From contig NZ_AVPI01000012.1 in assembly GCF_000768675.1 (NCBI RefSeq), forward strand, positions 62,001 to 126,000: a DNA stretch of 64,000 nt. Reading direction: 5' to 3'. The notes beneath the pieces were generated by a model, which was given only the letters and a program-made list of their open reading frames with translations, searched no databases and had not been told where the DNA came from. The DNA is from Knoellia flava TL1 (GTDB lineage Bacteria; Actinomycetota; Actinomycetes; Actinomycetales; Dermatophilaceae). Shown here in pieces: positions 45,101 to 46,069 of the stretch. Position 1 is the first letter of the stretch; each line of letters opens with the position of its first letter. The position numbers and the translations under genes were made by a program.

Positions 45101-46069
45101 ATGGCCACCGCCAAGACCGTGAACGCTGACCTGCCCGCCGAGATCTTCGACGTGCAGACCAACGTCCCGCTCATCCACCAGGTCGTCGTCGCCCAGCTCG
45201 CCGCCGCGCGCCAGGGCACGCACTCGACCAAGACCCGCGGCGAGATCCGCGGTGGTGGACGCAAGCCGCACCGCCAGAAGGGCACCGGTCGCGCCCGTGC
45301 GGGCTCGACCCGCGCGCCGCACTGGACCGGTGGTGGTGTCGTGCACGGGCCGACGCCGCGTGACTACGCGCAGCGCACCCCCAAGAAGATGAAGGCCGCC
45401 GCCCTGCGTGGCGCCCTGTCCGACCGCGCCCGCAACGGCCGCATCCACGTCGTGGCCTCGCTCGTCTCGGGCGACGCCCCGTCGACGAAGGACGCCGCGG
45501 CGCTGCTGCTCGGCCTCACCGACCGCCCGAACCTGCTCGTCGTCCTCGACCGCAGCGACATCGTGTCGATGAAGTCGGTCCGCAACCTGGACCACGTCCA
45601 CGTCATCGCGGTCGACCAGCTCAACACCTACGACGTCCTGTGCGCCGACGACGTGGTCTTCACCCAGGCCGCGCTCGACACGTTCGTCGCCGGTCCGGCC
45701 GCTGCGGTCAAGCCGCTCGACGCCGAGACCGCCGTCGTCACCGAGGCGCCCGCCGCCCCGGCCAAGGCCGAGAAGGCCCCGAAGGCGACCAAGGCCGCCA
45801 AGGTCGTCGAGACCGAGGCCGCCGAGGCCGACGCCGACGGTGGCTTCGGCCCCGACAGCGCCGCCGCCCTCGAGGACGGCTCCGCTCCCGCGGGCTTCGA
45901 GGTCAAGGGCAACAAGGACTCGATGAAGTACCACGTGCCCGGTTCGCGCTGGTACGACAACACCGAGGCCGAGGTGTGGTTCCGCACCGCTGAGGCCGCC
46001 AAGGCCGCCGGGTTCGTCCCGGCCGGTGGCGAGGCCGCTCAGCAGGTCTCCGAGGAGGAGGGCAAGTGA
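45101..46069 (+). CDS. rplD: 50S ribosomal protein L4 with C-terminal extra domain
   Basis: A 322-residue protein, versus ~205 for a normal L4. Residues 1-200 are a complete L4 ([35 protein letters not shown] loop, LLVVLDRSD). An Ala/Lys/Glu linker of about 65 residues follows. The last ~58 residues form a compact segment, [20 protein letters not shown] then [16 protein letters not shown], which resembles the small C-terminal module called sunset in some actinobacterial proteins. ATG 45101 is used; GTG 45092 is an alternative. The stop overlaps rplW. Confidence 0.95.

Follow-up and report, generated by a model that had tools for sequence, protein, structure and literature searches.

Ribosomal protein L4 of Knoellia flava ends in a leash-mounted sunset module that is probably a zinc-less relative of the Ada domain and has changed hosts repeatedly

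Ribosomal L4 proteins that continue into an additional C-terminal domain are already catalogued by NCBIfam, in which model NF051449 ('50S ribosomal protein L4, sunset domain variant') supplies a name for the architecture and no function. The same C-terminal module after a linker is found in the sunset variants NF051448, NF051450, NF051451 and NF051433 (L17, L20, S2 and ArfC, respectively), which differ from NF051449 in their host protein. In the open-access literature 'sunset domain' was encountered only in unrelated use and an L4 with an extra C-terminal domain was not found, while the available part of PMC10931766 holds nothing on the module. A comparable extension is described for the C. 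acnes 70S ribosome. According to the available portion of that report, the C-terminal extension of its uL4 is 100 residues longer than that of E. coli, is solvent exposed, lacks density and was called 'likely disordered' (PMC10085706). A small domain on a C-terminal leash also occurs in the SecA tail, which the accessible text of PMC6620043 describes as metal-binding; its host is unrelated, and the likeness to the sunset module is offered as an idea only and not as homology. The Ada zinc finger, with which the module is compared below, is described in the part of PMC4999995 at hand as resembling a circularly permuted treble clef with a reactive cysteine.

The window analyzed here is a 64,000-nucleotide stretch of the Knoellia flava TL1 genome, and its L4 reading frame on the plus strand (45101-46069) runs uninterrupted for 322 residues. 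The gene is flanked by reading frames named by eye as L3 and L23, and its stop codon shares bases with the GTG that opens the L23 frame at 46066. The following features were assigned within the frame.

45101..45703, + strand: uL4 core, residues 1-201 (Pfam PF00573 over 10-195; in the model the core's final helix runs to 202)
45704..45847, + strand: Ala-rich linker, residues 202-249, predicted disordered (pLDDT below 50 over 202-244)
45848..46030, + strand: sunset module, residues 250-310, predicted fold Ada-like, cysteine-free (NF051437, AlphaFold, Ada as best fold match, hhalign)
45905..45943, + strand: KGN/YH signature, residues 269-281, putative ligand face (invariant residues in alignments)
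45950..45982, + strand: second conserved stretch, residues 284-294 (alignment of 25 L4 proteins)
46031..46069, + strand: acidic end, residues 311-322, plus the stop codon (sequence and ORF list)

A first-pass annotation of the DNA had proposed a complete L4 of about 200 residues followed by a linker and a C-terminal module, and this layout was borne out by Pfam, NCBIfam and AlphaFold. Ribosomal_L4 of Pfam matches residues 10-195 with 217 bits, and the Pfam scan of the window L4 gave no further match, leaving the tail without any. NF051449 spans residues 9-306 with 483.5 bits (cut-off 385). A profile search of the tail, which had been suggested as a check, matched the 42-position sunset model NF051437 over residues 268-309 with 79.1 bits (cut-off 27). 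The window L4 thus has the architecture of NF051449, a complete core with a sunset module at its C-terminal end, and because NCBIfam already names this whole architecture, the protein taken alone is one case of a catalogued family. What is new here is the fold assignment, the wider list of hosts and the movement between ribosomal proteins; the name of the architecture was already known. The NF051449 cut-off alone is not decisive, since the L4 of one genome (G085) exceeds it with 385.8 bits and has no sunset match. The motifs quoted in the annotation, AEVWF among them, are all present in the window L4. Residues 196-262 contain 23 alanines in 67 positions and have a net charge of -6. Within the module, K269, G270, S274 and H278 are invariant across 25 aligned L4 proteins, as are Y285, T288, A290, W293 and F294 of the second stretch, and the same K, G, S and H positions are invariant across 74 aligned modules. 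The signature at 269-281 (KGNxxSxxYHxP) would accordingly be the candidate ligand face of the L4 module.

An origin of the tail by frameshift or sequencing artefact was considered and ruled out, because the frame is intact and relatives share the arrangement of L4, linker and module (Knoellia subterranea, Knoellia koreensis, Ornithinimicrobium, Phycicoccus and others). Knoellia subterranea provided the nearest fetched cores to the window genome (L4 93% and L17 98% identical). The related concern that close relatives might lack the module on L4 held in part: six of the eight genomes of the same family in the order sample have no L4 copy and two do, but relatives in other genera carry it.

Structure prediction, also named as a check, returned a confidently folded module. 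Modeled alone from an input of the window module and 73 others from related loci, it reached a mean pLDDT of 91.7 and a pTM of 0.80 (AlphaFold). In a full-length L4 model built with 25 sequences, residues 251-310 were predicted at pLDDT 89-95 and linker residues 202-244 at about 35-45; the L4 core was confident only over about 90-200, with residues 40-87 mostly below 50. The prediction is therefore of a folded module on a disordered linker. Up to E 10 the module profile matched no PDB sequence other than the C. acnes L4, which is present in six entries (including 8crx) and has a homologous module at residues 232-292 (E 5e-27). The annotation had placed the L4 tail in an exposed position, which agrees with the solvent exposure of the C. 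acnes extension as given in the available part of its report (PMC10085706). That extension was reported there as likely disordered, whereas the homologous module of the window is predicted to be folded on a flexible linker. Missing density would follow from a folded head on such a leash no less than from disorder, so the predicted structure could explain the C. acnes map and gives the extension another reading than plain disorder.

Comparison of the predicted fold with known structures pointed to a single protein family. The two best Foldseek matches in the PDB were Ada N-terminal domains (1u8b, E 0.56; 1wpk, E 0.64), which are not significant alone. In a VIA comparison of 46 Foldseek chains only three reached Z of at least 2, and all three were Ada (1u8b, 1wpk and 1zgw, the values in descending order being 3.9, 3.3 and 3.2), again weak alone. 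An alignment of 20 of 30 Ada loci was made from those fitting the extraction pattern, the other ten being left out. Against it, hhalign in local mode aligned the sunset profile over 47 columns with a score of 32.0, P 4e-6 and a probability of 87%; global mode gave a score of 23.5 and a probability of 23%. Across 100 column-shuffled Ada alignments the score was at most 13.6. Remote homology is likely because the real score of 32.0 stands so far above the shuffled maximum, the two structural searches being weak individually. The apparent likeness lies in fold and in sequence register; the difference is that the module retains none of the four zinc-binding cysteines of Ada, one of which is the methyl acceptor, and has no Pfam match. 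In the hhalign register the first three of these cysteines correspond to His, Ser and Ala, and the fourth, past the aligned end, corresponds by eye to Glu. The window L4 gave no match to PF02805 up to E 10, a limit within which the HMMER filters drop most matches above about 0.1. We conclude that the sunset module is probably a zinc-less remote relative of the Ada domain, outside PF02805, and an orphan domain thereby gains a probable link to a known fold. The Ada domain itself was found in 27 of 40 class genomes. A viral fold search with the module gave no match at E 0.001 or below; its best match was a protein without a name (E 4e-3), followed by Bacillus phage G Gp605 and, lower, by phage proteins named 'Metal binding domain of Ada'. 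A phage tblastn search with the whole L4 returned 13 records, all over the L4 core only.

The proposal that the module resembles a small sunset-type unit attached to unrelated proteins proved correct, both from the NCBIfam matches and from a survey of hosts. In this survey 365 loci yielded 319 distinct module records. The ribosomal hosts, counted as lower bounds among the matches listed, were uL4 (64), bL17 (62), uS2 (11), bL20 (8), bS16 (7), uL22 (6) and uS3 (1), 159 in total. Non-ribosomal hosts among the at least 319 records were NuoE (3), NuoJ (2), NusA (2), ArfC-type proteins (11), one class of membrane protein (12) and others (130). The counts are minimal because the 130 unassigned hosts include pieces cut at contig ends. 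They are biased as well, since the query for related loci drew on cytosolic modules and a single AGF-end pattern, and of 118 confirmed stretches 80 were retained. The order and class samples give a fairer picture of host frequency. Pfam confirmed examples of NusA, S3, L22, S2, S16, L20, NuoJ and NuoE hosts; NusA (L337, L340) and S3 (L301) had been assigned by hand beforehand, and the NuoE host of L282 rests solely on likeness of linker and module. NCBIfam scans of bS16, uL22, NuoE and NuoJ examples gave the ordinary host models plus sunset models of other hosts only; for the uS3 and NusA hosts the scan was against Pfam alone. The sole scanned member of the membrane protein class (L219) had no Pfam match. 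In LGFP-repeat proteins (L108 and L113 by Pfam) a hydrophobic stretch and basic residues precede linker and module. Basic residues flank the cytosolic side of membrane segments (the positive-inside rule), and by this rule these modules would be cytosolic. Other hosts look secreted, including SNase, GmrSD_C and SLH proteins (Pfam). Because membrane and secreted-looking hosts exist, the ribosome is not the sole setting of the module.

Placement and composition are more uniform than the hosts. In 310 of the 319 records the last module is followed by no more than 25 residues, with a median of six. Counting the module and the eight residues before it, no cysteine was present in any of the 159 ribosomal modules or in any of the 30 NuoE, NuoJ, NusA, ArfC-type and L219-type modules, while the 130 others comprised 35 with two cysteines, 12 with one and 83 with none. 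Most of the inspected two-cysteine hosts look secreted, and modules on secreted-looking hosts mostly have two cysteines; the two-cysteine hosts L349 and L356 are short proteins of the membrane. For the ribosomal copies, linker length has a median of 61.5 and 125 of 152 linkers bear negative charge; their modules have a median net charge of -3 (range -9 to 2), that of the window being 0. These properties bear on a first alternative, in which the module binds nucleic acid or phosphate as a function retained from an Ada-like ancestor. It would suit the Ada-like fold and register, the presence of some secreted-looking copies on nucleases (SNase, GmrSD_C) and the RNA-handling nature of NusA and the ribosomal hosts. 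However, neutral-to-acidic modules on mostly acidic linkers would keep the head off rRNA, the zinc cysteines are all gone, and NuoE, NuoJ and LGFP-repeat membrane proteins are among the hosts; we consider nucleic-acid binding distinctly improbable.

The distribution across genomes is patchy. In the order sample any copy was present in 29 of 109 genomes and a ribosomal copy in 21, with L17 as host in 15, L4 in six and L20 in two, and two genomes having both L4 and L17 copies. In the class sample the corresponding figures were 75 and 34 of 393 genomes. Since only 21 of 109 and 34 of 393 have one, most genomes do without a ribosomal module. Three of 159 genomes in the phylum sample passed the NF051449 cut-off, one of them being G085, whose L4 has no sunset match. 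Four copies in the window genome exceed the cut-off, namely those on L4 and L17, one that terminates a long acidic frame and one on a protein that is nuclease-like by eye, and the Knoellia subterranea genome has ten sunset matches. The nuclease-like protein (L004/L009), which lies outside the window, has at its end a sunset module of a longer type, containing an insert and two cysteines. An Ilumatobacter bin (G665; L301, L340) carries modules on L4, L22 and S3, all in a single ribosomal gene cluster, and also on NusA in another part of the genome.

The ribosomal copy is the only sunset in its genome in 16 of the 21 order-sample genomes that have one, and among 50 of the 80 named loci that were traced to their genomes, 11 of the 50 genomes contain a single copy. 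This bears on a second alternative, homotypic adhesion, by which modules would pair ribosomes with one another, as in storage or hibernation, or with module-bearing membrane proteins. Several genomes do bear the module on both ribosomal and single-pass membrane proteins, and tandem copies occur in L17 (L295), L4 (L242) and an ArfC-type protein (L068). But with no other sunset copy in those 16 genomes, only pairing between ribosomes is workable there, and we regard homotypic adhesion as quite unlikely. By the same count, the partner of the module need not be a second sunset protein. A third alternative, by which the module would mark its hosts for stability or degradation and be recognized by the Pup-proteasome or a different protease, would fit a C-terminal element on abundant complexes in actinobacteria, and a Pup match was found in 101 of the 109 order-sample genomes. 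All six scanned genomes of family f64 lack a Pup match, yet ribosomal modules occur in the f64 genomes G223 and G575, an argument that is weak in that the G223 module is degenerate and G575 lies outside the Pup scan; the chance that the module is such a tag seems to us very slim.

To evaluate movement between hosts, the fewest host changes were counted exactly on a tree of 166 modules and 64 columns, with weak branches resolved as favorably as possible. The ten hosts need at least nine changes. The count was 37 when all branches were kept and 33, 28 and 22 when only those with SH-aLRT of at least 80, 90 and 95 were kept; an earlier greedy count, since replaced, had given 40, 34, 28 and 22 for the same branch sets. 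Twenty shufflings of the host labels gave mean values of 80.4 (all branches), 58.9 (90) and 47.6 (95). AU tests rejected a single clade for all L4 modules (p 3e-11) and for all L17 modules (p 3e-11). A single clade of bacterial S16 modules was not rejected (p 0.06), and the L20 modules form one clade. On this tree the module has changed hosts repeatedly, with at least 28 changes on well-supported branches. Within one genus (g136), six order-sample genomes carry the module on L4 in four cases, on L17 in one and not at all in the sixth (G244). In G248 the L17 and L4 genes agree at 250 of 255 nucleotides (98%) over a tract that takes in the linker, the module and the first part of the tail, which is direct evidence of recent copying of linker and module as a unit. 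This pair was the only one of 62 within-genome host pairs above 88% DNA identity; 56 of these pairs gave a match at 74-98% (74-87% other than G248) and six gave none. Identity between modules on different hosts was 68.1% within genomes (64 pairs, 28 genomes) versus 61.0% between genomes, where the highest of 300 draws was 63.7%, and a within-genome cross-host pair surpassed every same-host module elsewhere in only five of 63 cases. Homogenization of modules within genomes is thus modest.

A further alternative is a mobile, mostly neutral C-terminal cargo, acquired by recombination at linker-rich C-termini and then tolerated, and we treat this as a serious rival to docking even though we judge it unlikely. 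The patchy distribution, the many host changes, the copying tract that extends through the linker in G248 and the degenerate state of nine of the 159 ribosomal modules all speak for it. These nine have lost the KGN or YH signature with the frame still open, seven of them on L4, which indicates that the function of the module can lapse. The seven degenerate L4 modules (L143, L151, L157, L158, L160, L161 and L112) keep the A-A-G end along with the open frame, and their sites may be decaying or may have another ligand. Against neutrality, K, G, S, H, F, A and G are invariant over the 74 aligned modules, and synonymous codon changes relative to the window L4 module outnumber amino-acid changes in four of six relatives (7:3, 7:4, 10:6 and 16:10), the first being Knoellia subterranea, in which 36 of 46 codons are the same, seven differ synonymously and three change the amino acid. 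The two are equal in G248 (10:10) and reversed in G664 (6 synonymous to 19). These are raw counts from six relatives, a seventh (L269) having been left out for its differing length.

The reading that we tentatively prefer, at somewhat less than an even chance, is that the module is a leash-mounted, zinc-less, Ada-related docking head that binds one common cytosolic partner and for which any exposed C-terminus suffices. Recruitment of a partner by the ribosome-anchored copy had been suggested in the annotation, and as a proposal it is reasonable. Docking to a common partner is favored by the C-terminal placement, the acidic linkers and the solitary copies. The data establish the intact frame, the architecture shared with relatives, the prediction of a folded module on a disordered linker, the C-terminal placement, the host changes on the tree, the one copying tract and the lack of cysteine in ribosomal modules; partner binding, the KGN/YH side as its face and the selection of hosts by exposure are inferred. 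The module would be held away from the ribosome on its flexible, mostly acidic leash and would bind the shared partner, probably through the conserved KGNxxSxxYHxP face, which would bring ribosomes to the partner or the partner to ribosomes. The identity of the host would be secondary and an exposed C-terminus would be what counts. If the choice of ribosomal carrier matters so little, recombination through linkers could shift the module from host to host. To our knowledge the C-termini of the other ribosomal hosts are all exposed in ribosome structures. The patchy distribution, the degenerate modules, the non-ribosomal hosts, the modest homogenization within genomes and the S16 and L20 clades count against the docking reading. 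Should the module dock ribosomes, actinobacteria would recruit them by a portable tag that fits several exposed ribosomal C-termini.

A broader form of this idea, to which we give a rather low probability, is an address code, in which a zinc-less Ada-fold tag would bring the machinery of transcription and translation together with respiratory or envelope proteins at a single hub in the cytosol. The tag would sit on ribosomes (through L4, L17, L20, L22, S2, S3 or S16), on NusA, on subunits of complex I and on the cytosolic face of membrane proteins. The tag rather than its position would then be under selection, because evolution would move the tag between exposed C-termini.

Several variants of the module were also noted. 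In the modules of family f5 membrane proteins (L113, assigned to LGFP by Pfam, and similar ones among L113-L162) KGN is replaced by KA[DNS] and YH by YW or YY, and this variant perhaps serves another ligand. Tandem modules occur as pairs on L17 (L295, in G667), L4 (L242) and ArfC-type proteins (L068) and as a run of four in a single 742-residue frame; the tandem loci also include L072, L076, L079 and L350. Eight viral contigs (L245-L249, L251, L252 and L254) encode a membrane protein that ends in a two-cysteine sunset module, with KAQED-type repeats in variable number between the membrane part and the module.
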